This document shows positions 26,812 to 64,000 of a DNA stretch of 64,000 nucleotides, piece by piece. Source of the stretch: Desulfamplus magnetovallimortis (GTDB lineage: Bacteria; Desulfobacterota; Desulfobacteria; Desulfobacterales; Desulfobacteraceae); assembly GCF_900170035.1 (NCBI RefSeq), contig NZ_LT828541.1:434536-498535 (forward strand). Direction: 5' to 3'. The position numbers and the translations under genes are program-made. The notes below the pieces were generated by a model. That model ran no database searches. It saw nothing but the letters and a program-made list of their open reading frames with translations, and was not told the origin of the DNA. Within the stretch, counting starts at the first letter, position 1. Each line of letters opens with the position of its first letter.

Positions 26812-26995
26812 TAACTCAAAATCGACATCTATAAAACCTCTTGAGCCTTATCAATACTGTCTGAATCAGGATTTCCAAGATTAACAAAGATAAGGCAAGA
26901 TTATCTATCCTGCACATCTTGTTTATCCTGGTTATCCTGATTCAGACAAATTCAGTAAATGGAAAAAAGCAAAAGATGTCGATTTTGAGTAATAA
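26812..26995. repeat. R1 palindromic repeat, full length
   Basis: This is one of the best full-length R1 copies, from AACTCAAAATCGACATC to GATGTCGATTTTGAGTAA, with the inner CTGTCTGAATCAGGAT/ATCCTGATTCAGACAA pair. AATA flanks both ends. It separates nifB from the ferredoxin gene. Confidence 0.8.
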
Positions 26996-31570: not shown

Positions 31571-31950
31571 GTTCCTCTATCCTTAAAATTTGGCATCTCA
31601 CAAGACATCCTTCATATCAACTCAAAATTAGTTTACACTTTTCGAAAAACTCTGAACCATGATTAAAGGGTTTAAGGATTAACACGATTAAAAATCAAGG
31701 TAATCCCTTAATCATGAAAATCATGGTTCAAAAAAAGTGTAAACCGACAAATGAACGATGCCTCTCTCGAAAGCCATAGTTTTACTTTTTGTTCAAAGTT
31801 TGATTGATGGATTGCTTTTACCGTGAAAATTCCCCTCATATTTTCATAATCGGGGGTGGCACTGCAGAGACAAGGCATGCCTTGTCTCTACTGCCATGAT
31901 GGTTTAATTATCTTTAAACTTTTACCCATCATCAAAACCTTGAAACAAGA
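31571..31950. repeat. R3 and R2 elements in the nifK-nifE gap
   Basis: Positions 31580-31770 hold an R3-type palindrome (TTTGGCATCTCACA..., inner TTTACACTTTT/AAAAAGTGTAAA). Nested in its loop is a second inverted repeat (CTGAACCATGATTAA against TTAATCATGAAAATCATGGTT). Positions 31815-31915 hold an R2 unit whose second stem is enlarged into a 24-nt perfect palindrome, AGAGACAAGGCA/TGCCTTGTCTCT. No gene is present. Confidence 0.7.
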
Positions 31951-33327: not shown

Positions 33328-33379
33328 TTATGCACTTCTCCCATAGTGTTCTTTCAAGGTTTAACTGTCGGGTGGTCTA

Positions 33380-33535
33380 TAACTCCCCTCTCTAATCATG
33401 GAGAGGGTTTTGGGTAGCGATGTGACATTATTAGCCGACATTTATAACTTGAAGAAACAATAGTTCATTTTCAAGATTAAAATTTAGGGTTTCATACTTC
33501 GTTGTGGCAGAGGGTGCTGCCATGGCCGTTATAAT
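33380..33535. repeat. R4 and R2 elements in the nifD-nifK gap
   Basis: Positions 33380-33415 hold an R4 palindrome (ACTCCCCTCTCTAATCATGG then AGAGGGTTTTGGGTA), the same element seen at 41003 and inside the OMP gene at 49625. Positions 33488-33535 hold an R2 second hairpin (GTGGCAGAGGGTGCTGCCAT) and CCGTTATAA tail directly before the nifD stop. Confidence 0.65.
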
Positions 33536-33537
33536 CT

Positions 33538-35196
33538 TTATTCCCATACATATTTTGCGGATAATTCCGGATGACTCTGCCAGGGAGCTTCAAGGAAGCG
33601 CCATACATTGGAGTTAACCATGCGGTCAATTTCCTTGTAAAAATTGATGGCACCTTTAAATCCTGCGTATGGTCCGCCGGAATCATATGAGTGGAGTTGT
33701 TTCATGGGGATGCCACTTTTCTGGATGGCGTATTTTTCCTTAATCCCGGCACAATATATATCTGGTTTGTAGATTTTTAGAAGGAGCTCAGTTTCATATT
33801 GACTCACATCATCAATTATCAGGCTACCCTCTGCCATCTCCGGCATCATTCCATCATACTTTTTAAAGGGAACTCCTTTATTTGCAAGAGAGGCCATCTC
33901 TTCAGGAGTTTTTCTGGGTCGATATTTTTCAGGATCCTTTTCAATGTCCAGCTCTTCGATATTCCGTGAGTCAGCATCAATCTTAATGTCGGGTATTACG
34001 GCTCTGCCCTCATAATCATCCCTGTGAGCAAATTCATATCCTGCAGAGACGGTTTTCATACCGATCTCCCTGAAAAGCTCCTGATAGTGGTGTGCCCTGG
34101 AGCCTCCAACAAACAGCATGGCCACTTTGCCTTCACATCGTTTTTTAACATCTTCACTCACAGCTTCCACTTCCGGCATTTCACGTTCTATAACCATTTC
34201 CACCTTTTTAATAAGTGCAGGTTCATCAAAATAGGCGGCTATTTTTCTTAATGATTTTGCCGTGGATTTGGCGCCGATGAAATTGATTTTGATCCAGGGT
34301 ATGCCATATTTAAGCTCCATCATATCTGCCACATAGTTAATGGATCTGTGGCACATGACAGTATTGAGATCCGCTGTATGGGAGTTGGCAAACTGGTCAT
34401 AGGTGGAGTTTCCGCTGAAGGTTGAGACAACAGAAATGCCGCATGCATCCAGAATCCGGTCAATCTCAAAACCATCTCCTCCAATATTGTACTCTCCCAG
34501 AAGATTGATCTTGTAGTCGGCATCCTTTATGGTGTCGTCCTTGCCCACCACATGGGTAAAAATACCGTTGTTGGCAATGTGGTGCCCGGCAGACTGGCTT
34601 ACCCCTCTATATCCCTCACAGGAAAAACCAAAAATATTTATTCCAAGTTTCTCCTTCATCTCCCTTGCCACAGCATGAACATCATCGCCGATAAGCCCAA
34701 CAGGACAGGTGGAAAAGATGCTGATAGCCTTGGGTTTGAAGGCATCATAGGCTTCCTGAATGGCGGATTTGAGCTTTTTTTCACCACCAAAAACAATATC
34801 TTCATCCTGCATATCCGTGGAAAAGCAATATGTCATGAAATTATCATCCTGATCCGAGGCGGGACGGGTCTGGTTCCGTCGGGTAAGCCAGCTATAGAAC
34901 CCGCATCCAATTGGCCCATGGGTGATATTGACAATGTCCCTTGTGGGGCCAAGGATCACCCCTTTGCAACCTGCATAGGAGCAGCCCCTTTGGGTTATGA
35001 TACCGGGCACTGTCCGGACATTGGCACCAATGGAAGGGATTTTACCATCTTCATCTTTTTTGTTTACAAGTATCTGTTTTGAACGTTTTCTGGCAACCTT
35101 TGGCGGATACTTGGCAAGCAGCTCCTGTTTGATTTTTTCCGGATCCAGCGGTTTTACCGGCCTTGTTTTTTTTATCTCTTTTATTGCAGTGCTCAT
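33538..35196 (-). CDS. nifD: Nitrogenase MoFe protein alpha subunit
   Basis: This 552-residue alpha subunit binds FeMo-co at an interface Cys and His. Motifs: RGCSYAGCKGVILGPT and HGPIGCGFYSW carry P-cluster ligands. GFSCEGYRGVSQSAGHHIAN has the Q-S-x-x-HH pattern of Mo-nitrogenase. ADLNTVMCHRSINYVADMME holds the cofactor Cys, and MKQLHSYDSGGPYAGFKGA the cofactor His. The insertion around residues 405-470 (SRNIEELDIEKDPEKYRPRK) is typical of the longer group III/anaerobe NifD. There is no VnfD/AnfD-specific signature, so the enzyme is Mo-dependent. Confidence 0.97.
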   Translation of the reverse strand: MSTAIKEIKKTRPVKPLDPEKIKQELLAKYPPKVARKRSKQILVNKKDEDGKIPSIGANVRTVPGIITQRGCSYAGCKGVILGPTRDIVNITHGPIGCGFYSWLTRRNQTRPASDQDDNFMTYCFSTDMQDEDIVFGGEKKLKSAIQEAYDAFKPKAISIFSTCPVGLIGDDVHAVAREMKEKLGINIFGFSCEGYRGVSQSAGHHIANNGIFTHVVGKDDTIKDADYKINLLGEYNIGGDGFEIDRILDACGISVVSTFSGNSTYDQFANSHTADLNTVMCHRSINYVADMMELKYGIPWIKINFIGAKSTAKSLRKIAAYFDEPALIKKVEMVIEREMPEVEAVSEDVKKRCEGKVAMLFVGGSRAHHYQELFREIGMKTVSAGYEFAHRDDYEGRAVIPDIKIDADSRNIEELDIEKDPEKYRPRKTPEEMASLANKGVPFKKYDGMMPEMAEGSLIIDDVSQYETELLLKIYKPDIYCAGIKEKYAIQKSGIPMKQLHSYDSGGPYAGFKGAINFYKEIDRMVNSNVWRFLEAPWQSHPELSAKYVWE

Positions 35197-35361
35197 GGTT
35201 ATATTTCCATCCTTAAAACCGATTTAAAAAGTTGACATCTTTCATTTCCCGCTGGAAAATCATTTTTGACCACCGAACGAATCCAGATCAGGGATACCCT
35301 TTTAGAAAAATCAAAAGGGATTGCCGTGGCAGATGCAAGGCATATGAATGATGCCAGCGGG

Positions 35362-35742
35362 TTAAAAATCATCCAGAACTCTATCTCCATTTTCGCCGGT
35401 TCTGACGCTTATGGCATCAAAGACCGGCATGACCCATATGACACCGTCTCCAGATTTTCCGGTATGATTAGCATCAATAATGGTTTCAACGGTTTTGGAT
35501 GTGAGCTTGTCCGGGACAACAATGGAAATGCATCTTTTGGGAATCAGCCTTCCGGACTGCCCCAACTGGGCTATTGCCTCTTCATATCCCTGTTCAGCAC
35601 CTTTAAGAAGCGTCAGATCTACAAGGCCCTTTCCTCTGCCAAGAGCCTCCATTGCTGTCATTGAGGATACACCGGCCTCAATAAGAGCTTTTTTTGTACG
35701 ATTAATCTGGTTCATACGAACAATGGCCATTACCTCTTTCAT
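35362..35742 (-). CDS. nifI2: Nitrogenase PII-like regulator NifI2
   Basis: This 126-residue PII-family protein, with NifI1, switches off dinitrogenase post-translationally in response to 2-oxoglutarate and ATP/ADP in organisms with this operon type. It has KEVMAIVRMNQINRTKKALI, the T-loop region ALGRGKGLVDLTLLKGAEQG, and GKSGDGVIWVMPVFDAISVR. Its start overlaps the nifI1 stop by 4 nt. A 165-nt gap separates it from nifD. Confidence 0.93.
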   Translation of the reverse strand: MKEVMAIVRMNQINRTKKALIEAGVSSMTAMEALGRGKGLVDLTLLKGAEQGYEEAIAQLGQSGRLIPKRCISIVVPDKLTSKTVETIIDANHTGKSGDGVIWVMPVFDAISVRTGENGDRVLDDF

Positions 35743-36098
35743 GCGGGCACCTCTGCTATCTCTTCCTCTCCTGTTTCAACCACACCAGAGCTTATGGTAT
35801 AGATTTCCTCCACCGGACTTACAAAAATCTTTCCGTCTCCAAATGCTCCGGCCTCTCCGCTTTTTGCAGTTTTCAAGATGGTTTTAAGAACAAAATCCTT
35901 ATCTTTTTCATCCACAACCGTAATGAGCATCTCCTTGGGAATTTCATCATATGTGACTTCCCCGATTTTGATGCCGCGCTGTTTTCCTCTTCCTGCAACA
36001 GTCATGCGGGTGACAGCAGGAAATCCCGCCTCCATGAGAGCTGCCATGATATTATGGGTTTTTTCCGGTCTTACAATGGATCTGATCATTAGTTTCAT
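35739..36098 (-). CDS. nifI1: Nitrogenase PII-like regulator NifI1
   Basis: This 119-residue PII-family partner of NifI2 has KLMIRSIVRPEKTHNIMAAL, a shortened T-loop (GRGKQRGIKIGEVTYDEIPK) and GAFGDGKIFVSPVEEIYTIS with the B-loop. The pair between nifH and nifD places the operon in the methanogen/clostridial/sulfate-reducer nif lineage. A 256-nt gap with four 31-nt repeats precedes it. Confidence 0.94.
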   Translation of the reverse strand: MKLMIRSIVRPEKTHNIMAALMEAGFPAVTRMTVAGRGKQRGIKIGEVTYDEIPKEMLITVVDEKDKDFVLKTILKTAKSGEAGAFGDGKIFVSPVEEIYTISSGVVETGEEEIAEVPA

Positions 36099-36131
36099 GG
36101 AATTTCATTCCTTATTTTATTACTCAGCAGT

Positions 36132-36255
36132 CATAAGTTCTCTAAGTGGCCACACCATACATCATAAGTTCTCTAAGTGGTCACACCACACATCATAAGT
36201 TCTCTAAGTGGCCACACCACACATCATAAGTTCTCTCAATGGCCACACCACACAT
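36132..36255. repeat. 31-nt tandem repeat, four copies, between nifH and nifI1
   Basis: Four head-to-tail copies of a 31-nt unit (plus strand CATAAGTTCTCTAAGTGG then CCACACCACACAT) with no spacers. Copies differ at only a few bases (GGTCAC for GGCCAC in copy 2; CTCAATGG in copy 4). Each has a short GTGGCCAC palindrome. The array lies entirely between the nifH stop and the nifI1 start, so it is part of the nif transcript. Confidence 0.9.
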
Positions 36256-36354
36256 AGTATTTTCAATAGGATCAATAATATAATGTGTAGTGATAGATTG
36301 AAGTTACGACTTTTGAGTGATTGATAATGTTGTTTGTTTCATTCTGACATGGCT

Positions 36355-37197
<843 letters not shown>

Positions 37198-51925: not shown

Positions 51926-54442
51926 ATGACAGAACAAGTGTTTACAAACTGCACCAATGCAGGCCCTGTCAGCGTCTATGTCAAAGACGGGAAGGTCCAG
52001 CGGATTCGTCCCCTTGTTGCGGATGAAAAGGATTTTAAACCCTGGACAATAGAAGCAGGTGGGAAAAAATATTCCCCGAAAAAGAAATTCAACATAGCCC
52101 CCTATGTCCATGGGGAACGTAGGCGGCTCTTTTCTGATGAAAGGATCAAGTATCCCATGAAACGGGTGGATTTTGATCCAAATGGAGAGAGAAATCCCCA
52201 GAACAGGGGGAAATCAGCCTATGAGCGGATCTCATGGGATGAGGCCATCTCAATCATTGCTTCGGAAATCACACGTATAAAGGATAAGCATGGCGGCTCC
52301 GCCATCAGCGGCATGACCTCTTCCCATCACAACTGGGGCATAGTGGGTTACAAGATGGGTCCGTTTGCGCGGTTCATGAACATGCTGGAGTTCACGCCGG
52401 TTCTCGATAACCCTGATAGCTGGGAAGGATGGCACTGGGGCGCCACCCATACCTATGGATTCTACTGGCGTCTTGGAATGCCAGAACCCTATGACATGCT
52501 GGGAGATGCCCTTCAAAATGCTGAAATGATTGTCTTCTGGTCCAATGACCCTGACAGCACAAGGGGTACCTACACAGGCCAGGATTCAGCAATGTGGCGC
52601 ACATGGCTTAAAGAAAAGGGTGTGGAGATGATCTTCATTGATCCTTTTCACAACTTTACAGCTGGTGCCATGGAGGGAAAATGGCTTGCCCCCAGAATGG
52701 GAACCGACACCGCCCTTGCCATGGCCATTGCATATGTCTGGATTACAGAAGATCTCTATGACAAGGAGTATGTAAAGGATCGGACAATTGGATTTGACGA
52801 GTTCAAACCCTATGTCCTTGGAGAGACAGACGGTGTTCCAAAAACTCCTGAATGGGCAGAAGCCGAATCCGGCATCAAGGCTAGGGTGATCAGGACTCTT
52901 GCCCGAAAATGGGCAGCTAAACGAACCATTCTTTCCGGCGGTGCCCGTGGCGGTGAAGGTGGTGCATGCCGTACAGCATTTGGTACAGAGTGGGCAAGAA
53001 TGATGGTACTGCTCCAGGCCATGCAGGGTCTTGGAAAACCCGGGCGCTCCATCTGGGGAACCACCATGGGAGCGCCGTCAGATGTGGATATCTGGTTTCC
53101 GGCCTATGCCGACCTTGAAGGACGTGTCTCCACAACAAGTATTGCAAAACATAAGCCCATGAACCCCACCAAACAGCGCTTGTGGCGCCTCACCCTGCCC
53201 GATGCGGTTCTCAATCCGCCGGTAAGCTGGTATGGAGAGGGCTTTTGCGGCCAGTCACTGGAGCAGCAGTTCACCCATTTTGAATATCCAATGAAAGGCT
53301 ATTCCGAGATCAAGATGTTCTACAGATACGGCGGTTCATTTATGGGCACATTGAGCGACACCTCCAAATGGGTTCGCATGTATCAAAGTCCAAAACTTGA
53401 ATTCGTCATTAATCAGGATGTCTGGTACAACAGCGAGACCCGCATGGCAGACATCATTCTGCCGGCCTGCTCCAACTTTGAGAGGGATGATGTGGGAGAG
53501 TGGGGTGCATGTGGCGGTTACACATGCCATGCCAGCAGCGGTTGTAATTTCCGCATTATTGTCCGTCAGCAGAAGTGTCTTGAGCCCATGTGGGAGTCCA
53601 AGTCCGATTACGAAATTTTTACCCTGATTGCCGATAAACTTGGAAGAAAAGAGGAGTTCACCGACGGCAAGACAGAGCTTGAGTGGTGCAAGGCATTTTT
53701 TGATGCCTCGGATCTGCCAAAGGTTGTGGATTGGGAGACCTTTAATAAAAAAGGGTATCAGATCATTAATATAAAGGATGACTACAAACCCACGCCTTCC
53801 ATGAGGTGGTTTGCCGAAGGAAGGGATTGTGACACACCTGACCCCATGAACCCCAAGCGCAAAACAGAAAAGGCAAAGGAGCTTGGAACCTTTTCCGGTA
53901 AGATCGAGTTTTCTTCCGAGAGCCTGAAAAAATATTTTCCGGATGATGATGAACGCCCTGTATCTCCGCGTTATATCCCAAGTTTTGAGGGGCACCATTC
54001 AGATATCTATAAAAAATACTCTTTGCAACTGCTGTCACCCCATCCAAGGTTTTCATTCCACTGTCACTATGACAAACACACTGACTGGCTTGATGACATT
54101 CCGGTTCACAGGATCAAGAAAGATGGCTATGCCTGGTGGCCGGCTCGGATTCATCCCATAGATGCAACACCTCGCAACATTATGAACGGTGATATTGTAA
54201 GGCTCTACAACGACCGCGGCTCAGTACTCTGCTGTGCCGTGATCACTGAACGGGTACGCCCGGGGGTGATTCACAGTTATGCATCATCGGCCAAATATGA
54301 TCCCCTATCTCCTGGCAATGCCGACTCAATCGACAAGGGGGGATGCGTGAATATTCTGACACCGTCACGCATGGTATCCAAAAACGCTCCGGGAATGACG
54401 CCGAATTCCTGTCTCATCGAAATTGAAAAGTGGGAGGGCTGA
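51926..54442 (+). CDS. Pyrogallol-phloroglucinol transhydroxylase-like molybdopterin enzyme, large subunit
   Basis: This 838-residue member of the DMSO-reductase family carries bis-MGD but no N-terminal Fe-S cluster (only one Cys in FTNCTNAGPVSVYVKDG). In Pelobacter transhydroxylase AthL the key residues, from memory, are His144, Asp174, Ser175 (Mo ligand), Tyr404, Cys557 and Tyr560. Here SSHHNWG (His134), NPDSWEGWHWG (Asp164, Ser165) and FPAYADLEG (Tyr394) fall at a constant offset of 10, and ACGGYTC supplies Cys-x2-Tyr. These enzymes move a hydroxyl group between ring positions without net redox change. The Fe-S small subunit follows at once. I favour the ATG at 51926 (6 nt after GGGAGG) over the TTG at 51866. 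Confidence 0.85.
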   Translation: MTEQVFTNCTNAGPVSVYVKDGKVQRIRPLVADEKDFKPWTIEAGGKKYSPKKKFNIAPYVHGERRRLFSDERIKYPMKRVDFDPNGERNPQNRGKSAYERISWDEAISIIASEITRIKDKHGGSAISGMTSSHHNWGIVGYKMGPFARFMNMLEFTPVLDNPDSWEGWHWGATHTYGFYWRLGMPEPYDMLGDALQNAEMIVFWSNDPDSTRGTYTGQDSAMWRTWLKEKGVEMIFIDPFHNFTAGAMEGKWLAPRMGTDTALAMAIAYVWITEDLYDKEYVKDRTIGFDEFKPYVLGETDGVPKTPEWAEAESGIKARVIRTLARKWAAKRTILSGGARGGEGGACRTAFGTEWARMMVLLQAMQGLGKPGRSIWGTTMGAPSDVDIWFPAYADLEGRVSTTSIAKHKPMNPTKQRLWRLTLPDAVLNPPVSWYGEGFCGQSLEQQFTHFEYPMKGYSEIKMFYRYGGSFMGTLSDTSKWVRMYQSPKLEFVINQDVWYNSETRMADIILPACSNFERDDVGEWGACGGYTCHASSGCNFRIIVRQQKCLEPMWESKSDYEIFTLIADKLGRKEEFTDGKTELEWCKAFFDASDLPKVVDWETFNKKGYQIINIKDDYKPTPSMRWFAEGRDCDTPDPMNPKRKTEKAKELGTFSGKIEFSSESLKKYFPDDDERPVSPRYIPSFEGHHSDIYKKYSLQLLSPHPRFSFHCHYDKHTDWLDDIPVHRIKKDGYAWWPARIHPIDATPRNIMNGDIVRLYNDRGSVLCCAVITERVRPGVIHSYASSAKYDPLSPGNADSIDKGGCVNILTPSRMVSKNAPGMTPNSCLIEIEKWEG

Positions 54443-54447
54443 TCAAC

Positions 54448-55284
54448 ATGGCACGTAAAACGATTCTGATTGATGTCAATAGATGCACCGGCTGCTACAA
54501 CTGTTTTCTGGCCTGCCGGGATGAACATTTTGGTAATGACTATCTGCCATATTCGGCAGCACAGCCGTTGAATGGACAGTTCTGGATGAGGATTAACGAG
54601 ATTGAGCGAGGCAAATTTCCCCGCCCCAAACTCTCCCATATCCCCAATGCCTGCATGCACTGCGAGGCAGCCCCCTGCATTTCCGCAGCAAAAAATGGGG
54701 CAGTATATAAAAGAGATGACGGCATAGTGGTGATAGATCCTGAAAAGGCAAAGGGGCAAAAGGATATTGTCAATGCATGTCCCTACAGGGCTATTTACTG
54801 GAACGAGGAACTAGAAATCCCACAGAAATGCACCATGTGTGTCCATCGCCTTGAAGAGGGAGAAAAGATGCCCCGATGCGTTGAGTCATGCCCCACAGGT
54901 GCCATGTACTTTGGAGACATTGATGACCCTGAAAGTGAGATCTCAAAGGTAACTAAAGTGTCGAAAACAGAAAGTTTTCACCCTGAATATGGAACAGCTC
55001 CTTCTGTGAAATATATCGGCATTCCCAAAAGGTTTGTGGCCGGTGAAGTTGTGCTTTCAGATCAACAGGAAGAGTGTGCTGAAGGGGTAAAAATTATTCT
55101 TGAAGGAAATGGTGAAAAGCGGGAAATCCTCTCAGATGCCTATGGCGATTTTGAGTTTGAAGGTCTTGAGAAAAACAGCGCCTATTCCATTACCGTGGAA
55201 AAAGATGGTTATGACTCCTGTAAGGCCGAATTTTTCACCCGCACCGATGTGAACCTTGGGGAAATTGTAATCTCCCCTGCTTAA
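54448..55284 (+). CDS. Transhydroxylase-like iron-sulfur small subunit
   Basis: This 278-residue protein has ferredoxin-type [4Fe-4S] motifs: CTGCYNCFLACRDEHF near 13, CMHCEAAPC near 70, NACPYRAIYW near 107, CTMCVHRL near 126 and CVESCPTGAMYFGD near 142. A C-terminal Cna/transthyretin-like beta domain (about 205-278: GVKIILEGNGEKREILSDAY, GDFEFEGLEKNSAYSITVEK) is exactly the extra domain of the Pelobacter AthS subunit and is absent from other DMSO-reductase electron-transfer subunits. It supports the transhydroxylase assignment. It lies 5 nt after the large subunit. Confidence 0.87.
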   Translation: MARKTILIDVNRCTGCYNCFLACRDEHFGNDYLPYSAAQPLNGQFWMRINEIERGKFPRPKLSHIPNACMHCEAAPCISAAKNGAVYKRDDGIVVIDPEKAKGQKDIVNACPYRAIYWNEELEIPQKCTMCVHRLEEGEKMPRCVESCPTGAMYFGDIDDPESEISKVTKVSKTESFHPEYGTAPSVKYIGIPKRFVAGEVVLSDQQEECAEGVKIILEGNGEKREILSDAYGDFEFEGLEKNSAYSITVEKDGYDSCKAEFFTRTDVNLGEIVISPA

Positions 55285-55306
55285 CGAGATAGAAGATTAT
55301 AGTTAA

Positions 55307-55415
55307 GTACTCAAAATCGACATCTTATTGGTTTTTTCATTTACTGAATTTGTCTGAATCAGGATAACCAGGATAAACAAGAGTTCAGGATAGATAATCC
55401 TGCCGAACGTTCAAC
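55307..55415. repeat. R1 palindromic repeat, left half
   Basis: It starts TACTCAAAATCGACATCTTA and reaches ATAGATAATCCTGCC; the right arm is missing. It adjoins an M1 element. The 55285-55584 gap between the transhydroxylase pair and the cupin gene is filled by these two repeats plus a GTAGAGACAA/TTGTTTCTAC hairpin at 55532-55559. Confidence 0.7.
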
Positions 55416-55428
55416 AAAGGCTCAATTG

Positions 55429-55519
55429 GGTGGTGTCCCAAATATGTTGATGAGCTCTTCACAAACCTTGATTCAGCAGGGCTTTCACAAAAAGATATCA
55501 ACACTTTTATGACACTACC
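55429..55519. mobile_element. MITE M1, 91 bp, 8-bp target duplication
   Basis: It is identical to the copy at 16474-16564, with ends GGTGGTGTC and GACACTACC. Direct duplication CTCAATTG lies on both sides (55421-55428 and 55520-55527). It is non-coding and must be moved by a transposase encoded elsewhere. Confidence 0.88.
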
Positions 55520-55584
55520 CTCAATTGGATGTAGAGACAAGCCATCTTTTGTTTCTACATTCAACTATTTTAAGGAGAATCCGT

Positions 55585-55917
55585 ATGATCAGCGTAAAAG
55601 ACGCAAAAGGCACCCCCTATGATGCTGCCAAACATTTCGGGGTTTATGGTCTTCAGAAAATAACCGAGGCAGACTCCAAAAGAATTACTGTCTGTTACTC
55701 CTATTTTCAGCCAGATGGCGGGGCAGAAATGTCTCCATCTCCCAAGGAACGGGTCTATTATGTTACCAAAGGGTCCATTACTGTTAATGGAAAGGATGGA
55801 GAGTCACATCTTCTGAATGAAGGGGATATGATCTACATAGCCCCTGGGGAAGAGCGTGATATGACCATTAACAATGGAAAGCCGGCTGAAGTGCTTGTTT
55901 TTATTGTAACCCCATAG
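55585..55917 (+). CDS. Small cupin-domain protein
   Basis: This 110-residue single cupin is counted from the ATG at 55585 (AAGGAG upstream). The barrel includes YSYFQPDGGAEMSPSPKERV, YYVTKGSITVNGKDGESHLL, EGDMIYIAPGEERDMTINNG and AEVLVFIVTP. The usual HxHxxxE metal motif is not intact (motif 1 reads SPSPKERVYYVTKG), so metal binding is doubtful. It may be a sensor, lyase or ring-product isomerase within the aromatic gene set. The stop is TAG. Confidence 0.8.
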   Translation: MISVKDAKGTPYDAAKHFGVYGLQKITEADSKRITVCYSYFQPDGGAEMSPSPKERVYYVTKGSITVNGKDGESHLLNEGDMIYIAPGEERDMTINNGKPAEVLVFIVTP

Positions 55918-55926
55918 GGCTTTTTA

Positions 55927-56207
55927 ATTAGGGCTTTTTAATAAGGATTTCATTTTTTCAGACAAATGGCAAACCTTACTCAAAATCGACATCTTATTGC
56001 TTTTTCAGAAGTTATTGCAGTTGTCTGAACCAGGATAACCAGGATGGATAGGATGCTCAGGATAAGATAATCCTGCCTTATCCTGTTAATCTTGGGAATC
56101 CTGATTCAGACAGTGTTGACAAGGCTTACAAGATCATAGGTGTCGACTTTGAGTAATTAGAGCTTTTTAATAAGGATTTCATTTTTTCAGACAAATGGCA
56201 AACCTTA
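55927..56207. repeat. Full R1 copy flanked by a 52-bp direct repeat
   Basis: R1 occupies 55977-56157 (ACTCAAAATCGACATC to GTGTCGACTTTGAGTAA). The 52 bp before it (55927-55978, ATTAGGGCTTTTTAATAAGG onward) recur after it (56156-56207) with one mismatch. The flanking duplication is far longer than a normal transposition footprint. Confidence 0.85.
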
Positions 56208-56245
56208 GAATGAACCAATATTTTTATAGTGCCAATTTTGATGCT

Positions 56246-56340
56246 CCTGTAAAAAGTCGAAATCTGCAAAATCGCTATTAATAATTTCAGCATGTTATAA
56301 CTGCAAAAATGCTGAAATCTGACTTTTTACGAGGCCATTA
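56246..56340. repeat. R5 hairpin repeat
   Basis: GTAAAAAGTCGAAATC pairs with a later GACTTTTTAC, and TTTCAGCAT... with ATGCTGAAATC. It ends in ACGAGGCCATTAA. A degenerate copy lies at 12715-12840. It sits just before the SDR gene. Confidence 0.7.
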
Positions 56341-56366
56341 ATTTTTAATAATAACGAGGAATAAGA

Positions 56367-57134
56367 ATGAAAGATATATTTAAGTTAAGTGGAAAAATCG
56401 CTGTTGTCACAGGTGGTGCAGGCGGCATCGGAGAAGCACTGGCCCTTGGATTGGGAGTTCATGGAGCCACAGTGATCGTCTCCAGTCGTAACAAGGATGC
56501 CATTGAGGCCGTAGCTGCTAAAATCACAAAAGAGTCCGGCAACGAAGCCATTGCTATTCCCTGTGATGTCACAAGTGAAGCAAGTATGGCTGATCTTGTG
56601 GATGTCGTGGTTAAAAAATATGGAAGAATTGATATCCTGGTTAATGCCATGGGAATGAATATAAAGCATGATGCCTTTGAGTATCCTGTGGAGGATTGGG
56701 AAAAGCTTTTTAATGTCAATGTAAAGGGCACCATGATTGCCTGTAAGGCTGTGGGACGGGTTATGAAAGAGCAGAAGTGCGGTTCCATAATAAATCTTTC
56801 TTCAGTAAGAGGAATCAGGGGCTACAGCGGCGGAAATTCCGGCTATTGTGCCACCAAAGGGGCTGTGGAGCTTGTCACAAAAGCCCTTGCCATTGAGTGG
56901 GCACCCCTTAATATCCGCGTCAATGCCATAGGTCCTGCCCTGATCATCACCCCAGGGACAAAACACATTGCCGATAATCCCGAGCTTGCCAAAAAATATG
57001 CCGCAGCCGTTCCCATGGGACGCATTGGCCTGCCCGAAGATCTTGCCGGAGCATGTGTATTTCTGGCTTCAGATGCAGCCGGATTTATTTCAGGGCAGAC
57101 CATTTTTGTGGATGGCGGGCTGACAGCACAGTAA
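56367..57134 (+). CDS. Short-chain dehydrogenase/reductase
   Basis: This 255-residue classical SDR has the NAD(P)-binding VTGGAGGIGEALALGLG near 14, VNAMGMN near 90, INLSSVRGIRGY with Ser near 142, and YCATKGAVE (YxxxK) near 156. The C-terminus FISGQTIFVDGGLTAQ is typical. It is annotated generically as gluconate 5-dehydrogenase-like; in this context it could be a phloroglucinol-type ring reductase or a hydroxyacyl-CoA dehydrogenase. Arg at VIVSSRNKD after strand 2 hints at NADPH. Confidence 0.85.
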   Translation: MKDIFKLSGKIAVVTGGAGGIGEALALGLGVHGATVIVSSRNKDAIEAVAAKITKESGNEAIAIPCDVTSEASMADLVDVVVKKYGRIDILVNAMGMNIKHDAFEYPVEDWEKLFNVNVKGTMIACKAVGRVMKEQKCGSIINLSSVRGIRGYSGGNSGYCATKGAVELVTKALAIEWAPLNIRVNAIGPALIITPGTKHIADNPELAKKYAAAVPMGRIGLPEDLAGACVFLASDAAGFISGQTIFVDGGLTAQ

Positions 57135-57163
57135 TTTTACTCCATTAAAATTGAGGAGAATCC

Positions 57164-57862
57164 ATGACTGGATTGGATATCATTGAAAAGGCCAGACAGG
57201 AAAAACGCACCATCCTGACAGAAATTGAGGCCAAACAGATTTTAGGTGAAATTGGAATCAACTGCACGGACACGCGCCTTGCCACAACAAAGCAAGAGGC
57301 GGTGGCGTTGAGTGAAGAGATGGGATATCCGGTGGTGTTGAAGATATCCTCGGTTGACATTACACACAAAAGCGATGCCGGCGGTGTCAAGGTCAATCTC
57401 AAAGATAGGGCAGAAGTTGAAAAGGCTTTTGACGAGATTATGACATCATGCAGGGCTGCCTGTCCCGATGCCGATATAGAAGGTGTTGCTGTACAGGGCA
57501 TGGCAAAAACCGGCACAGAGATAATTATGGGAATGATAAAGGATCCAAGTTTTGGACCGGTTGTGATGTTCGGGCTTGGTGGTGTATTGGTTGAAGTGTT
57601 AAAAGATGTCTCCTTCCGCATTGTCCCAATAGAGAAAAAAGATGCCATTGAGATGACAGGTGAAATCCAGGGGAAAAAACTGCTTGAAGGCTATCGGGGA
57701 CAAGAGCCTGCTGATATCGCTTATCTACAGGATATGCTGCTGAAGCTCTCGGATTTTGTGGATAACACACCCGGCATTGAAGAGATCGACATGAATCCGG
57801 TGTTTACATACAAAGAGGGAGCCGCAGTGGTTGATGCGCGGATCATTCTTGCAGCAGATTAA
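57164..57862 (+). CDS. ADP-forming acyl-CoA synthetase, ATP-grasp (beta) subunit
   Basis: This 232-residue stand-alone ATP-grasp_5 subunit has LTEIEAKQILGEIGIN near 19, YPVVLKISSVDITHKSDAGG near 51, and EEIDMNPVFTYKEGAAVVDA near the end. It pairs with the CoA-binding alpha subunit encoded downstream to interconvert acyl-CoA + ADP + Pi and acid + CoA + ATP. It could activate a ring-cleavage acid or harvest ATP from a product CoA ester. A GAGGAG site precedes the ATG. Confidence 0.9.
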   Translation: MTGLDIIEKARQEKRTILTEIEAKQILGEIGINCTDTRLATTKQEAVALSEEMGYPVVLKISSVDITHKSDAGGVKVNLKDRAEVEKAFDEIMTSCRAACPDADIEGVAVQGMAKTGTEIIMGMIKDPSFGPVVMFGLGGVLVEVLKDVSFRIVPIEKKDAIEMTGEIQGKKLLEGYRGQEPADIAYLQDMLLKLSDFVDNTPGIEEIDMNPVFTYKEGAAVVDARIILAAD

Positions 57863-58068
57863 CTACTACTGCTTTGTCAAATCTTAATTTTAGTGTTAAT
57901 TCTATTAACAGAGTACCCTGAATCTTAGTCTTGACGAAGCACTACCTGATTATCAATGATCATGAAAAATCCTGTAAAAAGAAGCCGGATTAATTTTGTG
58001 CAGGTATTTCAAACAGATAGTAAACACCAATTCGCCAAACCAAGTGAGATAAAGGATGGTGCAAAGCC

Positions 58069-59451
58069 ATGATGGAACTATTTTTTAAACCCAAATCTAT
58101 TGCTGTAATCGGAGCAAGCGGAACCCCTGGAAAACTGGGGTACGTAATCATAAAAAATATATCTGACAGCGATTTCAGCGGAAATGTCTATCCTGTAAAC
58201 CCCAAATCAGATGAAATCCTGGGATATAAGGTCTATCGCAGTGTAACAGAAATTCCCGGAGATGTTGATCTGGTTGTTACAGTTCTTCCCACTCCAAAAC
58301 TTACTGTTGCAACCATGGAAGATTGCGCTAAAAAGGGCGTTAAAGCCGTAATAATCGAATCTGCCGGATTTGCTGAAATGGGAGGAGATGGAAAACTCTA
58401 TCAGCAACAGATAGTTGATATTGCAAAGAAAAACAATATTCGGGTAATGGGGCCTAACTGTTCCGGTATTGTATCACGGGACATTGTAACATCCATTTAC
58501 CCGATAACAAAAAAAGTACCAAAGGGTAATGTGGTGCTCATAGGTCAGTCAGGCCTTCTTGCTGCGGGAATGGCATCGGATCTTGTGGAGAACGAAAGCC
58601 TGAATGTCAGAAATGTCTGTTCATTCGGCAACAAGTGCGATGTCAATGAAAATGACCTTTTAGAATACTTTGGCAATCAGGATGATGTGGATGTTATCTC
58701 CATGTATCTTGAAACGATTTCCGATGGAAGAAATCTTACCCGTATTGCCAAAAAGGTTGCTGCAGAAAAACCGGTTATCTTTCTTTCCGGAGGGCGTACC
58801 GAAGCCGGTGCCAGAGCAGCCATGAGCCATACCGGAAGTATTGCAAGCAATGCAATGATTGTTGAGGCTGCTGTGAAGCAGACCGGCATGATAATGGCCG
58901 ATGATTTTACAGAACTTAAAGATTTTGCAAGGGTGTTTTCCACCCAGCCCCTTCCCAAAGGAAACCGGGTGGCTGTCATTACTCTGGCCGGAAGTGTAGG
59001 GGTCAATGTTTCTGATCTTTGTGCAAATTTTGGTCTGGAGCTGCCAAAACTTACTCCGGAAACAACAGAGAAACTAAAGGATATGTTTGACACACCAGTA
59101 TCAAATCCCGTTGACCTCTATTTTTCCGTAACTAAGATAGGCTTTACCAAAACACTTGAGACCACTTTTCCTGATGCATTCCGTGATCCCAATATTGATG
59201 CGGCTGTCATTATTCTGGCAGGCTTTAAATATACCGAGGAAGCTGTTCAGAAAAAGATCATCCAGAAAATTGTCAAAGAGGTTGGAAAGCCTGTTGTGGT
59301 ATGCATGGTTGTTGGATACAACAAATACAAAAACGTGATCATGGATGAAATGGGAAAAGAGTTGCCGGTCTTTCCCTCTTTGATCTCCGGTGTCAAAGCC
59401 TTGAGCAAACTGTGTGAATACGGCATCCGTAAACAGAAAATGTCATCCTGA
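58069..59451 (+). CDS. ADP-forming acyl-CoA synthetase, CoA-binding (alpha) subunit
   Basis: This 460-residue protein has domains in order: CoA_binding (KSIAVIGASGTPGKLGYVII), succinyl-CoA-ligase-like domain (KGNVVLIGQSGLLAAGMASD) and ligase_CoA. The phospho-histidine lies in GARAAMSHTGSIASNAMIVE near residue 262. LAGSVGVNVSDLC and TPVSNPVDLYFSVTKIG are typical of acetyl-CoA synthetase (ADP-forming) alpha chains. A gap of about 206 nt without features separates it from the beta subunit. The gene ends 12 nt before the hydratase. Confidence 0.9.
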   Translation: MMELFFKPKSIAVIGASGTPGKLGYVIIKNISDSDFSGNVYPVNPKSDEILGYKVYRSVTEIPGDVDLVVTVLPTPKLTVATMEDCAKKGVKAVIIESAGFAEMGGDGKLYQQQIVDIAKKNNIRVMGPNCSGIVSRDIVTSIYPITKKVPKGNVVLIGQSGLLAAGMASDLVENESLNVRNVCSFGNKCDVNENDLLEYFGNQDDVDVISMYLETISDGRNLTRIAKKVAAEKPVIFLSGGRTEAGARAAMSHTGSIASNAMIVEAAVKQTGMIMADDFTELKDFARVFSTQPLPKGNRVAVITLAGSVGVNVSDLCANFGLELPKLTPETTEKLKDMFDTPVSNPVDLYFSVTKIGFTKTLETTFPDAFRDPNIDAAVIILAGFKYTEEAVQKKIIQKIVKEVGKPVVVCMVVGYNKYKNVIMDEMGKELPVFPSLISGVKALSKLCEYGIRKQKMSS

Positions 59452-59463
59452 GGAGATAAGGGT

Positions 59464-60231
59464 ATGTCTTACGAAAATATCATTTTGGAAAAAGAAGAGA
59501 AGATTGCCATCATTACCTTCAATCGCCCCGAGGCCATGAATGCCCTGAATATCAAAACACGGGCGGAATTTGCAGCAGCCGTCAAGGATGTTGAAGAGGA
59601 TGATGCCATAAAAGTGCTGATTCTAACAGGCTCTGGAAAAGCCTTTGTAGCAGGTTCTGATATAAAGGAGTTCCACGCCACAACACCCTTTGCAGCACAC
59701 AATATCGTTCGTTTGGGCTCCATTGTGGAAAAGCTTGGAAAACCTGTTATTGCAGCAGTAAACGGTTTCTGCCTTGGCGGCGGCTGTGAGATTGCCATGG
59801 CCTGTGATCTTATTATTGCCTCGGAAAAGGCAAAGTTCGGTCAGCCTGAAATTAATCTCGGCATCATTCCCGGAGGTGGCGGTACCCAGCGTTTGCAGCG
59901 TCTCATTGGTGTCTGCAGGGCAAAGGAACTCATTTTTACCGGAGATATTATACGGGCAGATGAGGCAGAGAGAATCGGCCTTGTCAACCGTGTTGTGGGT
60001 ATGGATGAGTTGATGCCAAAGGCAAAGGAGATAGCAGCCAAGATTGCCACAAAGAGCTCAGCAGCATTGAAGCTTGCCAAGCAGGCCATCAACAAGGGAA
60101 TGCAGACAAGCCTTCAGGATGGCCTTGACTACGAATATGAGATGTATGCCCTCTCTCTATCCCTGGAGGACAAAACAGAAGGGGTGAATGCCTTCCTTGA
60201 AAAAAGGGCACCCAATTTTGTTGGTCGTTAA
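59464..60231 (+). CDS. Enoyl-CoA hydratase (crotonase family)
   Basis: This 255-residue protein carries both catalytic Glu residues of true hydratases, GGGCEIAMACD (Glu109) and FGQPEINLGIIPGGGGTQRL (Glu129), at the standard 20-residue spacing. The oxyanion hole is FVAGSDIKEF and GGGCE. It would hydrate an enoyl-CoA to a hydroxyacyl-CoA. Ring hydrolases such as those of benzoyl-CoA pathways share this fold, so hydrolysis of a cyclic product is also conceivable. Start preceded by GAGG. Confidence 0.9.
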   Translation: MSYENIILEKEEKIAIITFNRPEAMNALNIKTRAEFAAAVKDVEEDDAIKVLILTGSGKAFVAGSDIKEFHATTPFAAHNIVRLGSIVEKLGKPVIAAVNGFCLGGGCEIAMACDLIIASEKAKFGQPEINLGIIPGGGGTQRLQRLIGVCRAKELIFTGDIIRADEAERIGLVNRVVGMDELMPKAKEIAAKIATKSSAALKLAKQAINKGMQTSLQDGLDYEYEMYALSLSLEDKTEGVNAFLEKRAPNFVGR

Positions 60232-60327
60232 TCCCCCATTTGATTCAGTAATAGGGCATGATGAATCAGGATGCCCGGGATTAACAGGATAATCAATCAG
60301 GATACAAAATTTATTAGGAACAATACA

Positions 60328-60762
60328 ATGGAAAACATGGCAAACAAAGTAGCACGAATACCCAATTTAGTCGATTGGTCAACCGGTGAAGTGAGATTGA
60401 TGAGTGCAAAATGCAACTCATGCGGCACCTATTTTTTTCCAAGGGAACATTATCAGCATCGCCCTGGATGCTCAAGGGAAGGTGTGGAGAACGTACTTCT
60501 TCCCCACAAAGGGAAACTGGCCAGTTACACCATTCAATATTATCCCTGCCCCGCACCTTTTAAAACCGAAAAAAAGATAACCCCTTACGGTATTGGCCTT
60601 GTTGAGTTTGAAGATGAGAAAATTCAGGTGGCCGGCATCATAACCGATACCGATCTCAAATCTCTTAAAATGGGGATGGAGATGGAGACCACAATTCTTG
60701 AAATGTTTACAAATGAAGAGAAACAGCAAGTGGTCACCTGGGCATTTAAAGCGGTTAAATAA
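60328..60762 (+). CDS. DUF35 OB-fold, zinc-ribbon acyl-CoA-binding protein
   Basis: This 144-residue protein is counted from the ATG at 60328 (AGGA upstream). The rubredoxin-like zinc ribbon KCNSCGTYFFPREHYQHRPG has CxxC plus a later Cys/His. The OB fold follows (GKLASYTIQYYPCPAPF; YGIGLVEFEDEKIQVAGIIT). Such proteins pair with SCP-x-type thiolases, as in BbsA/BbsB benzoylsuccinyl-CoA thiolase and in archaeal HMG-CoA synthase/thiolase complexes. The thiolase is the next gene. An R1 remnant lies at 60247-60300. Confidence 0.88.
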   Translation: MENMANKVARIPNLVDWSTGEVRLMSAKCNSCGTYFFPREHYQHRPGCSREGVENVLLPHKGKLASYTIQYYPCPAPFKTEKKITPYGIGLVEFEDEKIQVAGIITDTDLKSLKMGMEMETTILEMFTNEEKQQVVTWAFKAVK

Positions 60763-60806
60763 CGAATCAGCGATCAGTAGAAGCATATAAAAAAGGGATA
60801 ATAAAA

Positions 60807-61988
60807 ATGAGAGATGTATATATTATTGGAACCGGAATACACCCCTGGATGGGTTTTTCTGAGCAGGTATTTGCCGATTTTGCGGCTGTGGCTGTTGATA
60901 ATGCATTGAAAGATGCAGACATTGAGTGGAAAAAAATCCAGGCCATCATGGCTGGAATTTTTATTTATGGTGGAAATGCAGGTCACCTTTCCGGTCAGTA
61001 TCTGGAGAGCATCTTTGGTGAAACCGGCGTTCCTGTTGTAAATGTCTATAATGCCTGTGCCACAGGCTCCGCCTCCATCAGGATGGCATATAACAGCGTT
61101 GCTGCCGGTGAGACAGATACTGCTCTTGCCTTTGGAGCAGACGTTTCCCCAAAAGGTTTTCTTACTGCAAAATCCGACAATGCAGTTCAGGACAGGGATG
61201 TAATCCGCTGGAAAATGGGCGGAATGCCTAATCCCATTTACTGGGCACTGGAGTGCAGGAAAAGAATGGAAAAATATGACACCACAGAAGAAGATTTGGC
61301 ATTGGTAAAGGTGCTGATGAGTGAATATGGCTCCAAAAATCCCCATGCACGCTTTAAAAAGACCTACACCATAGAAGAGGTACTGAACTCTGTCTATGTC
61401 TGCGATCCTTTAAGACTCTTTGAGATATGTCCTGTCAGTACCGGTGCTGCCGCGGTAATTGTCACAGCAGACAAGGAGCTTATTGCCAAAGCAGATAAAG
61501 CTGTTAAGATCAATGCCACCACAATGGGAAGTGCCATCTATGGCGATCCAACAATCCGTATCTCTGCTCTTTCATGCCCAGCTGTTCCAGAAGCACCCAT
61601 GCTGAGTGAAAGCTATTCAGCTTCACGTCAGGCCTATGAAAAATCAGGCATCGGACCGGAAGACATTGATGTTCTGGAGCTTCCGGACAACAGCTCCTGG
61701 CATTATCTGGTCTATCTTGAGACCTGTGGGTTCTGTAAAGATGGCGAAGCTGACAAAATGCTCAGGGAAGGTGAGACTAAAATCGGCGGAAAACTGCCTG
61801 TAAATCCAAGTGGAGGATTCTCTTCCCATGGAGAAGCTCTTTCTGCCCAGGCGCTCTGGCAGGTAATTGAATGCACCAATCAGCTCAGGGGCCGGTGCGG
61901 TGAAAGACAGGTTGAAAATCCTAAGGTAGCCATGGCTCAGACCTATGGCCTTATGGGAAACAGCGGGACAACTATACTATCTGTATAA
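60807..61988 (+). CDS. Thiolase (SCP-x/lipid-transfer type)
   Basis: This 393-residue thiolase-fold protein has its nucleophilic Cys in VYNACATGSASIRMA (Cys84) and catalytic His in PSGGFSSHGEALSAQALWQV. The second Cys of canonical degradative thiolases is replaced in the C-terminal GLMGNSGTTILSV, as in the DUF35-dependent class. It would cleave a 3-oxoacyl-CoA with CoA to acetyl-CoA plus a shortened acyl-CoA. It ends the plus-strand gene set. Start after AAAAGGGA. Confidence 0.9.
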   Translation: MRDVYIIGTGIHPWMGFSEQVFADFAAVAVDNALKDADIEWKKIQAIMAGIFIYGGNAGHLSGQYLESIFGETGVPVVNVYNACATGSASIRMAYNSVAAGETDTALAFGADVSPKGFLTAKSDNAVQDRDVIRWKMGGMPNPIYWALECRKRMEKYDTTEEDLALVKVLMSEYGSKNPHARFKKTYTIEEVLNSVYVCDPLRLFEICPVSTGAAAVIVTADKELIAKADKAVKINATTMGSAIYGDPTIRISALSCPAVPEAPMLSESYSASRQAYEKSGIGPEDIDVLELPDNSSWHYLVYLETCGFCKDGEADKMLREGETKIGGKLPVNPSGGFSSHGEALSAQALWQVIECTNQLRGRCGERQVENPKVAMAQTYGLMGNSGTTILSV

Positions 61989-62059: not shown

Positions 62060-62290
62060 TGAATTTGTCTGAAGCAGGATAAAAAGGATATTCAGGATAG
62101 ATAAACCTGCCTTATCCTGTTAATCCTGGGCATCCTGATTCAGACATTTTTGACAAAGAATGAGCAGGAAATAAACTTGTGTTGTCAGAAAAGAGAGAAG
62201 TCTTTGAAACATGTCACCAAAATGTACGAATGTGCAAGTGGTTTTAGACTCATTAAAAGCCTCAAAGAGCATAGGTGTCGGTTTCAAAAA
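62060..62290. repeat. R1 palindromic repeat, diverged
   Basis: The core TTGTCTGAAGCAGGATAAAA ... GGGCATCCTGATTCAGACA is intact. The right end is displaced to 62255-62285 (GCCTCAAAGAGCATAGGTGT). It fills the convergent gap between the thiolase and the second transhydroxylase pair; a terminator-like role for its hairpin is possible. No gene is present from 61989 to 62292. Confidence 0.65.
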
Positions 62291-62292
62291 CG

Positions 62293-63132
62293 TCATATCC
62301 AGCTAACTTTTGCAAAACAGCTTTCCACAAGTTCAATATCAAATTCATCTGTCACTTTATGCTGATAAATGACCCTTATCTGATATTTGCCCCTTTTTTC
62401 CGGAAGTCCTGAAAATCTGTATTCTCCGAATGAATCAGTAATTTTTTGATCAACTAGAGAACCATTTTTAAACAACTCCACTGTGACTCCTTCAACACAC
62501 TCTTCCACTCCATTTTTTCTGGTTGCAACTGATCCAGCTATAAAACATTTTCTATAAAGGGAAAGATTTTTATACATAACTATTGAACGCCCTCTCATTA
62601 CTTTATGAAATGATTCAAGATCATTTGCCTTGATAAATGAGAAAAGCTCCTCTTCCGGAAGCGATTTGAAGGTCAAAGCTCCAGTGGGGCATGCCTGGAC
62701 ACATCGCGGTGCCTTCCAGCCATCATCAAGCAGATGTGCGCATAGGGTACATTTTTGAGGTGTCTGATTTTCCTCGTTCCACCATATGGCACCCTGGGGA
62801 CAGGCTTTGACCAGATTCCGTTTTCCTCTGGCTTTTTCAGGATCAACAACTACTATGCCGTCAGATCGCTGATATATCTCTTTTTTCGATGTATTCCGAA
62901 CACATGCTGCATCTTCACAGTGAAAACAGGGTTTTGGAAGATAGGTGACTGAAATATAAGGGAATTCCCCTTGTTCCCGTGTCAATATGTTCATCCAGCG
63001 GTGGCCGTGGAGAGGCTGGCTTAAAGTATAGGGCTTCCAGTCATTTTGATAGTGCTCATCCTTGCAGGCGAGAAAACAGTTATTGCAGTTTTCGCACTTT
63101 TCTATATCTATGATCATCAACCATTTATTCAT
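62293..63132 (-). CDS. Second transhydroxylase-like iron-sulfur small subunit
   Basis: This 279-residue paralogue of the 54448 protein has [47 protein letters not shown] and [12 protein letters not shown], plus the C-terminal Cna/transthyretin-like domain ([40 protein letters not shown]). The two small subunits are clearly related but diverged, so the pairs arose by old duplication or separate acquisition. The start overlaps the stop of the large subunit (ATGA). Confidence 0.87.
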
Positions 63133-64000
63133 TTTATTGCCTCTCGTTTTCCTTCAATTTGTACAGTCACACTTTTTCCTTCAATTTGTACAGCCCCACT
63201 TTTTCTTTCAATTTGTATAGCCCCACTTTTTCCTTCAGACATTTCATTTTTCCATAGTCTTATCTGAACAAGACATGAGTTTGGGGCCGATGAATGTGAT
63301 CTTTTAATGATGCTTTTCCCGGGTGTAAGAAGGTTGATACAGCCTCCTTTATCAGCAGAATTACCAGGCTCGCCCACAGGTTCATATCGGGCAGAACCTT
63401 CACAGGAGTGGACAACCCCTGGAGGTAGTCTATGGGTAAGTTGTGCTGCACAGATAACCGATCCTCGGTCGTTAAATATCTCCACCAGGTCATGCTGCCT
63501 TATGTTTCTTGCCGCAGCATCAAGTGGATTTATTCTCACGATCCAGTAATAGTGGCCTTTTTTAAGGATTCTGTGATCCTTGACATCGTTCATGAAACCA
63601 TCTTTAGCATCAAACATTGTATGAAAACTGTACCGAGGATGGGGGGATATCATCTGCAATGGGTATTTTTCCACCAAATCCTTGCACCCATGTCCTTCCC
63701 ATGAGGGGATATATTTGGATATTGTGGGTCTTTCAGGATCATCAGGTGCAAATCTCTTGAGGCTTGATGACTCAAACTCAAGTTTTCCTGACTGGGTCTG
63801 GAGACCGGATTTCCATTTTTCAGTATAATCAGAAGGCAAAGGAGAGAGTTCCGGCAGATCCTTTTTTCTGCCTTCGGCAAACCAGCGGTATGAGACAGGT
63901 GCCCGCAGGGATTCATCAGGAGCCGGCACAACATAGTAACCCTTTTTCATAAACTGTTGCCATGAGATAACCTTTGGAAGATCACTTGCATTAAAAAGGC
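63129..64000 (-). CDS. Second transhydroxylase-like large subunit, C-terminal part (runs off window)
   Basis: The visible 290 residues are the C-terminal part of a second large subunit. [20 protein letters not shown] at the window edge aligns with DASDLPKVVDWETFNKKGYQ of the first. [40 protein letters not shown] and [20 protein letters not shown] follow, all with counterparts. After the conserved end ([13 protein letters not shown]) it has a tail of nine-residue repeats (EGKSGAIQI and variants, nearly four copies) not found in the first subunit. The catalytic residues lie outside the window. Confidence 0.85.
63140..63240. repeat. 27-nt coding tandem repeat in the second large subunit
   Basis: Nearly four units of 27 nt (plus strand TTTTTCCTTCAATTTGTACA then GCCCCAC, with variants) encode the C-terminal tail of the second large subunit. 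The unit is nine codons, so copy-number change would keep the frame. Confidence 0.85.

Follow-up and report, generated by a model that had tools for sequence, protein, structure and literature searches.

We identified a set of nine genes in a 64,000-nucleotide stretch of the Desulfamplus magnetovallimortis genome (hereafter the window, meaning the whole stretch) that on balance we read as an operon for the anaerobic degradation of trihydroxybenzenes via phloroglucinol. The operon opens with a transhydroxylase-like molybdoenzyme, AthLS, and its CoA-dependent finish, composed of an ADP-forming acyl-CoA synthetase (ACD), a hydratase, a DUF35 protein, and an SCP-x/thiolase-like protein, would replace the TfD and TAL enzymes of a described pathway. 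This gene set probably enables D. magnetovallimortis, a relative of sulfate reducers, to degrade plant phenols anaerobically. For the CoA-type end of trihydroxybenzene degradation, the operon gives 9 candidate genes, to which an unlinked cyclase pair is added.

Gene content of the operon

The nine open reading frames (ORFs) are located at 51926-61988, all on the + strand, in the order AthL, AthS, cupin, SDR, ACD beta, ACD alpha, enoyl-CoA hydratase, DUF35 (OB_ChsH2_C), and thiolase-like protein. The original prediction, made from the letters of the sequence, had described a transhydroxylase-led gene set on one strand, and all nine ORFs are present with Pfam families that agree with the identities it gave:

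51926..54442, + strand, AthL-like molybdopterin enzyme, large subunit, 838 aa (PF21423, PF00384, PF01568; PDB 4v4c_A, 917.8 bits; active-site residues)
54445..55284, + strand, AthS-like iron-sulfur small subunit with a C-terminal beta-type domain (PDB 4v4c_B, E 9.4e-62; Fer4_11, CarboxypepD_reg)
55585..55917, + strand, single-domain cupin, 110 aa (Cupin_2; alignment of 18; start codon inspected)
56367..57134, + strand, SDR, candidate phloroglucinol reductase (adh_short_C2; best D. magnetovallimortis match of the SDR of a Clostridiales locus, L086)
57164..57862, + strand, ACD, beta (ATP-grasp) part (PF13549, E 2.8e-85)
58069..59451, + strand, ACD, alpha part (PF13607, PF13380; TIGR02717 at 420.8 bits, under its cut-off of 567)
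59464..60231, + strand, enoyl-CoA hydratase of the crotonase family (PF00378, E 1.7e-70; alignment of 18)
60328..60762, + strand, DUF35 (OB_ChsH2_C) protein (PF01796, E 7.3e-9; weak BbsA match of 29.2 bits; start codon inspected)
60807..61988, + strand, SCP-x/thiolase-like protein with Cys84, PDNS at 293-296, and GEA at 342-344 (PF22691, E 3.2e-35; PDB and family alignments)

The start of AthL was placed at the ATG at 51926, with a further ATG at 51923. The ACD carries the CoA-binding, Succ_CoA_lig, and ATP-grasp_5 domains expected of an ADP-forming acyl-CoA synthetase, and the hydratase keeps, in the alignment of 18, both of the Glu positions that we take to be catalytic. The usual metal-binding His residues are absent from the cupin by eye, and H17, E55, and R91 are invariant in its 18 aligned relatives; its predicted model (pLDDT 92) retrieved TM1459 and other cupins in a fold search, from which no function was inferred. 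No cyclase-family ring-opening enzyme was seen in the window, and a pair of them is present on contig 4 of the same genome.

Identity of the AthLS pair

AthL aligned with the large subunit of Pelobacter acidigallici transhydroxylase (4v4c_A) at 50% identity (917.8 bits, E 4.8e-275). The active-site spacing claimed for it is confirmed by this alignment: H134, D164, S165, and Y394 pair with Pelobacter residues 144, 174, 175, and 404 at a constant offset of 10, and the His/Asp/Tyr set is thus retained; further downstream the offset is 28 (F440/468, C529/557, and Y532/560). We take the serine to be the molybdenum ligand, and the equivalents of H144, D174, and Y404 presumably keep the roles of those residues. 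The AthL-like domain 1 (PF21423) was matched at 67.3 bits against a cut-off of 27, along with PF00384 and PF01568. Across 76 rows of the AthL clade, made up of the window and 75 of 80 surveyed loci (L027, L033, L060, L061, and L075 not included), there is no variation in the H, D, S, and W at the active-site places, and 75 rows keep the Tyr, with 1 gap. AthS aligned with 4v4c_B over residues 7-272 of 279 (E 9.4e-62), an alignment that covers the C-terminal part and agrees with the C-terminal beta domain assigned to it in advance.

The Pelobacter enzyme, which transfers a hydroxyl group from tetrahydroxybenzene to pyrogallol, resembles the window pair in its domain set, its two subunits, its active-site residues, and the identity of its large subunit. 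In the tree, however, Pelobacter AthL falls outside the window AthL clade (76 rows, SH-aLRT 98) and groups with a second type of pair, convergent with the operon (100); this is a quick tree with no bootstrap and a long-branch warning, from which 14 of 109 rows, at most 33% identical to window AthL, were left out. We know of no enzyme activity for any member of the window AthL clade.

Conservation and co-occurrence

We surveyed the loci of the best 80 of 249 relatives; each locus stops at 10 kb or where its contig stops, and a gene missed in a locus need not be absent. All nine genes were identified on one strand in 10 of the 80 (L013, L014, L015, L016, L017, L019, L021, L027, L028, and L041), at 59-95% identity to the window proteins, and because of this recurrence the arrangement is more than chance. 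The nine genes recur as an operon in Desulfobacterota, the phylum for which a neighborhood survey was proposed with the original prediction. Two of the ten loci (L015 and L017) belong to Desulforhopalus singaporensis DSM 12130 and Desulfopila aestuarii DSM 18488, whose records are titled as type strains, and the proposal is therefore testable in culture; no cyclases were seen within 10 kb in these two loci, beyond which they were not sought. Two cyclase-family genes lie between SDR and ACD in L013 and L027, and in genome G184 the row runs transporter, two AthLS-type pairs of a distant type, IclR-type regulator, transporter, AthL, AthS, cupin, SDR, two cyclases, ACD, hydratase, DUF35, and SCP-x.

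In other phyla, members of the AthL clade adjoin relatives of BKACE (the TAL family), 3HCDH (the TfD family), cyclases, and SDR, as annotated with Pfam on representatives; the loci with TfD/TAL relatives are titled Actinobacteria, Bacillota/Sporomusaceae, Clostridiales, Dehalococcoidia, and Deltaproteobacteria. Among the 80 loci, SCP-x (at least 60%) was identified in 14, and TAL (at least 30%) or TfD (at least 38%) relatives in 12, with both in 8. SCP-x was found together with TAL/TfD in 0 of 80, which serves as description only because the pattern follows the species tree. Members of the cyclase pair were present in 13 loci and a single cyclase in 3. The pair accompanies SCP-x in L013, L014, L027, and L082 and TfD/TAL in L058, L063, and L086, and the single cyclase accompanies SCP-x in L040 and TfD/TAL in L077 and L078. 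Since each finish occurs both with the pair and with a single cyclase, the distribution suggests that the SCP-x and TfD/TAL finishes take the same ring-opening product.

In a class survey of 241 genomes, AthL (at least 72%) and SCP-x (at least 74%) were identified in the same 9 genomes, the next SCP-x match being at 40%; the Fisher value of 1.5e-16 ignores relatedness and so gives no probability. The cyclase (at least 85%) was found in 7 of the 241, and 6 of these are among the nine. The remaining genome, G218, lacks both AthL and SCP-x; besides its cyclase pair it has adjacent TfD and BKACE genes instead. No BKACE match was obtained in 7 of the 9 AthL/SCP-x genomes, including D. magnetovallimortis, whose genome (97.3% complete) gave 0 matches to the TAL family. 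Nor was a close TfD of the 3HCDH family found there, the best match to the L086 TfD relative being 36% (148.5 bits), compared with 44% (275.8 bits) in G218. The genome and locus surveys overlap (G036/L013, G132/L027, G122/L018, G210/L030, G057/L045, and G273/L046) and are not independent.

Cyclases and SDR

The D. magnetovallimortis cyclase pair (PF04199) is located on contig 4 at 239947-241619, unlinked to the operon, near genes that resemble molybdenum-cofactor genes by eye, and its members share 86% and 75% identity with their L013 counterparts. Only one PDB sequence, a metal-dependent hydrolase, was matched by the cyclase at 1e-5. The cyclases (L095 9442-11228, - strand, and relatives) occur mostly as tandem pairs. 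One type has Asn, Ile, or Cys in place of the Asp of the HxGTHxDAPxH motif in all 19 of 19 rows, and the other type shows 87% identity between the L013 (Desulfamplus) and L086 copies.

The best match of the L086 SDR in D. magnetovallimortis is the window SDR (54%, 294.7 bits), followed at a distance by the next (36%, 143 bits), and a similar drop from best to next match was seen in 6 of 6 genomes searched with this protein. The L086 locus holds its own TfD-like dehydrogenase, a TAL relative, and cyclases besides its SDR. As the counterpart's locus has a TfD relative of its own, the window SDR is more likely a ring (phloroglucinol) reductase than a beta-oxidation enzyme, judged by sequence comparison.

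Thiolase-like and DUF35 proteins

The thiolase-like protein aligned with SCP2-thiolase, archaeal acetyl-CoA acetyltransferase, BbsB, and archaeal acetoacetyl-CoA thiolase, which agrees with the fold family of the SCP-x thiolase call in the original prediction. The thiolase His motifs (HDCF and GHP) do not bear that call out: five PDB chains, two of them nearly the same protein, carry HD[AC]F and GH[PA] where the window protein has PDNS and GEA. Both PDNS and G342-E343-A344 are invariant in 13 aligned relatives, one of them from a locus without AthL, and Cys84, within NACATGS, is kept and likewise invariant in the 13 sequences. The NCBIfam "lipid-transfer protein" model scored 438.1 bits against a cut-off of 424 with the relative in locus L109, and 403.1 bits, just below it, with the window protein. 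Automatic naming would accordingly label this thiolase-fold family "thiolase" or "lipid-transfer protein" despite its differing residues. The structure predicted for the SCP-x protein from a shallow alignment had a mean pLDDT of 37.8 and was not used.

Thiolase folds partnered by a DUF35 protein are reported for BbsAB, archaeal acetoacetyl-CoA thiolase, PhlABC, Ltp2-ChsH2, and Sal-Shy, whereas here the partnership consists of adjacent genes only (PMC12329534). Among these, the steroid aldolases Sal and Ltp2 are described as carrying YDCY and YDHF, and as examples of how DUF35-partnered thiolase folds can act as aldolases (PMC12329534). That aldolase motif was not found in the window protein, which has PDNS at the aligned place, as it also differs from the aligned thiolases in its PDNS and GEA. 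Its motifs set the protein apart from canonical thiolases and from the known aldolase groups alike, and thiolysis, retro-aldol cleavage, or another reaction are all possible for it. Tentatively, and at clearly less than even odds, we propose that SCP-x and DUF35 form a new kind of C-C cleaving enzyme, built on a thiolase fold that has Cys84 and Glu343 but not the thiolase His residues. Its substrate would be the CoA ester of the product of phloroglucinol ring opening, and the enzyme would be one more genetic solution to the end of the pathway, beside TfD/TAL and the proposed aldolase route. Relatives of SCP-x (68%) and DUF35 (55%) were also identified at L109 4630-14668, a stretch with no AthL and with three hydratase relatives, as well as MeaB-like and acyl-CoA ligase genes by eye.

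Proposed pathway and alternatives

We infer all substrates, the sequence of reactions, and the chemistry of the final cleavage; the genes, their conservation, and their co-occurrence within the class are observed, as is the lack of any TAL-family match in D. magnetovallimortis. AthLS would convert pyrogallol, or another trihydroxybenzene, to phloroglucinol, which the SDR would reduce to dihydrophloroglucinol. The cyclase pair encoded on the other contig may then hydrolyze the ring to give 3-hydroxy-5-oxohexanoate, and ACD would turn this C6 acid into its CoA ester, which would be cleaved to small CoA units by the hydratase together with the DUF35/SCP-x pair, in place of TfD and TAL. The last step that we favor is thiolysis, acting on a 3,5-dioxo acyl-CoA formed beforehand through oxidation by a dehydrogenase whose gene lies elsewhere. 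The substrate-level ATP gain expected in the original prediction is uncertain, because an ADP-forming synthetase would spend ATP if it works in the direction of activation.

Several observations weigh against this pathway. A substrate that already carries a 3-hydroxyl would leave the hydratase with no clear task, no hydroxyacyl dehydrogenase is encoded in the operon unless the SDR is one, and the SCP-x active site is unlike that of a thiolase. No phloroglucinol reductase appeared by name among the PDB matches of four SDRs (the best 60 for two of them, and those passing strict thresholds for the other two). Three of the nine AthL/SCP-x genomes (G196, G210, and G057) are without a close cyclase, although two of these are less than 90% complete, and G132 and G057 carry one BKACE each. 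In a phylum survey of 395 genomes, AthL (at least 60%) was identified in 5 and SCP-x (at least 68%) in 3, with only D. magnetovallimortis in common, and the link between the two is therefore limited to one class. One AthL operon of the phylum sample (L115) carries TAL and TfD relatives, which speaks against a general link, and shared ancestry may explain much of the nine-of-nine co-occurrence. The transhydroxylase-led route with a CoA finish, as originally predicted, thus fits the neighborhoods and the co-occurrence in 9 of the 241 genomes of the class, but does not extend across the phylum sample.

The pathway could also be the same and its last cleavage a retro-aldol reaction, with hydratase, DUF35 protein, and a thiolase-fold aldolase cooperating as in steroid side-chain degradation (ChsH/Ltp2 and Shy/Sal). 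This chemistry requires no dehydrogenase, the three genes are consecutive, the thiolase His motifs are lost, and Sal and Ltp2 are the reported precedent (PMC12329534). However, the SCP-x family has PDNS in place of the Sal/Ltp2 YDCY/YDHF motif and keeps the thiolase Cys, and no aldehyde dehydrogenase was seen among the ORFs and Pfam matches of the operon. Retro-aldol cleavage is the main alternative, unlikely but to be taken seriously, and thiolysis of the CoA-activated C6 acid is the more likely end.

A different starting point would be needed if the AthL-like protein were a relative of resorcinol hydroxylase or hydroxyhydroquinone dehydrogenase, and resorcinol or hydroxyhydroquinone were degraded via 5-oxohexanoate-type acids, with hydratase and SDR in beta-oxidation. 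Such a route gives the hydratase a clear role, and the window has two AthLS-type pairs side by side, an arrangement known from resorcinol degraders. RhL is also placed in the same Ser-ligand group as transhydroxylase (PMC10100899). We nevertheless consider the route improbable: AthL retains the transhydroxylase H, Y152, D, S, W, Y404, and F468 positions, its clade adjoins TfD and TAL relatives in several phyla, and no acyl-CoA dehydrogenase was found in the operon with Pfam. Least probable to us is that a phenol molybdoenzyme and an acyl-CoA module are unrelated and have been kept together by descent in one lineage. The occurrence of SCP-x and DUF35 without AthL in L109, a further point against the proposed pathway, would fit such a history, as would AthL without SCP-x in most loci, within their reach, and in the phylum sample. 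Yet the one-strand nine-gene order is kept in ten loci at 59-95% identity, and AthL and SCP-x co-occur even though they lie on different contigs in 4 of the 9 genomes (G122, G196, G210, and G057).

Comparison with known pathways

In Clostridium scatologenes, the dihydrophloroglucinol cyclohydrolase (DPGC) is reported as a cyclase-family enzyme that works with phloroglucinol reductase (PGR, an SDR), TfD, and TAL, and a cluster of this type has already been reported from sulfate-reducing bacteria (PMC10470551). The SDR and cyclase-family enzymes are shared with the pathway proposed here, and the AthL clade adjoins TfD/TAL relatives elsewhere; in contrast, D. magnetovallimortis has no TAL-family match or close TfD, and has ACD, hydratase, DUF35, and SCP-x instead. 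For P. acidigallici, a route via triacetic acid (Brune and Schink 1992) is listed with CoA transfer and a beta-ketothiolase finish in a table that names no genes (PMC8624197). It shares CoA activation of a C6 acid and a beta-ketothiolase-type finish with the proposed pathway, and as listed it differs in its acetyl-CoA transferase, where D. magnetovallimortis has an ADP-forming synthetase and a noncanonical thiolase-like protein. The combination of CoA esters with a thiolase, put forward in the original prediction as not previously described, is therefore not new in itself, but candidate genes for it are. A 2024 proposal, cited in PMC13039779, has an aldolase route start from 3-hydroxy-5-oxohexanoate, and transhydroxylase complexes were earlier predicted in Chloroflexi (PMC3971608). 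We found no paper on this gene set, a weak negative because subscription journals are mostly outside the coverage of the literature searched; as far as that literature goes, what is new is a set of candidate genes for a finish of the CoA type, together with the unusual active site of the cleaving enzyme.

Further AthLS-type pairs and other features of the window

The second AthLS-type pair lies convergent with the operon at the right edge of the window (62293-64000, - strand):

62293..63132, - strand, second AthS-like subunit, convergent with the operon (ORF; Fer4_11)
63129..64000, - strand, C-terminal part of the second AthL-like subunit, which extends beyond the window and has a full length of 1049 aa (55% to Pelobacter AthL; 4v4c_A, 1054.4 bits; complete on L009)

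This large subunit, whose full gene is at L009 1165-4314, is closer overall to Pelobacter AthL (55% identity) and deviates from it at three pocket positions (R153 to W, F468 to T, and C557 to S), at which window AthL is alike or similar to the Pelobacter protein. At its N-terminus it is extended by about 165 residues with no Pfam match. A large subunit of this second type was identified in the same stretch as AthL in five other loci (L049, L057, L059, L061, and L081). Two more distant AthLS-type pairs are encoded in the genome (L010 10675-14102 and L011 9198-12625), their large subunits being 37% and 36% identical to window AthL over the aligned region, with Arg at the Tyr404 place; the two distant-type pairs upstream of the AthL operon in G184 occur with TRAP transporter genes.

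Elsewhere in the window, a nitrogenase gene cluster was recognized by eye from the translations at 28716-37179 (- strand); it comprises an iron protein along with two pairs of related subunits. A dispersed repeat of 9-base units around CAGGAT was identified in 24 places (e.g., 1380-1453, 26907-26941, 55358-55374, and 62073-62139); the 24 matches, with up to 3 mismatches, compare with 0.99 expected, and 0 of 100 shuffles reached this number.

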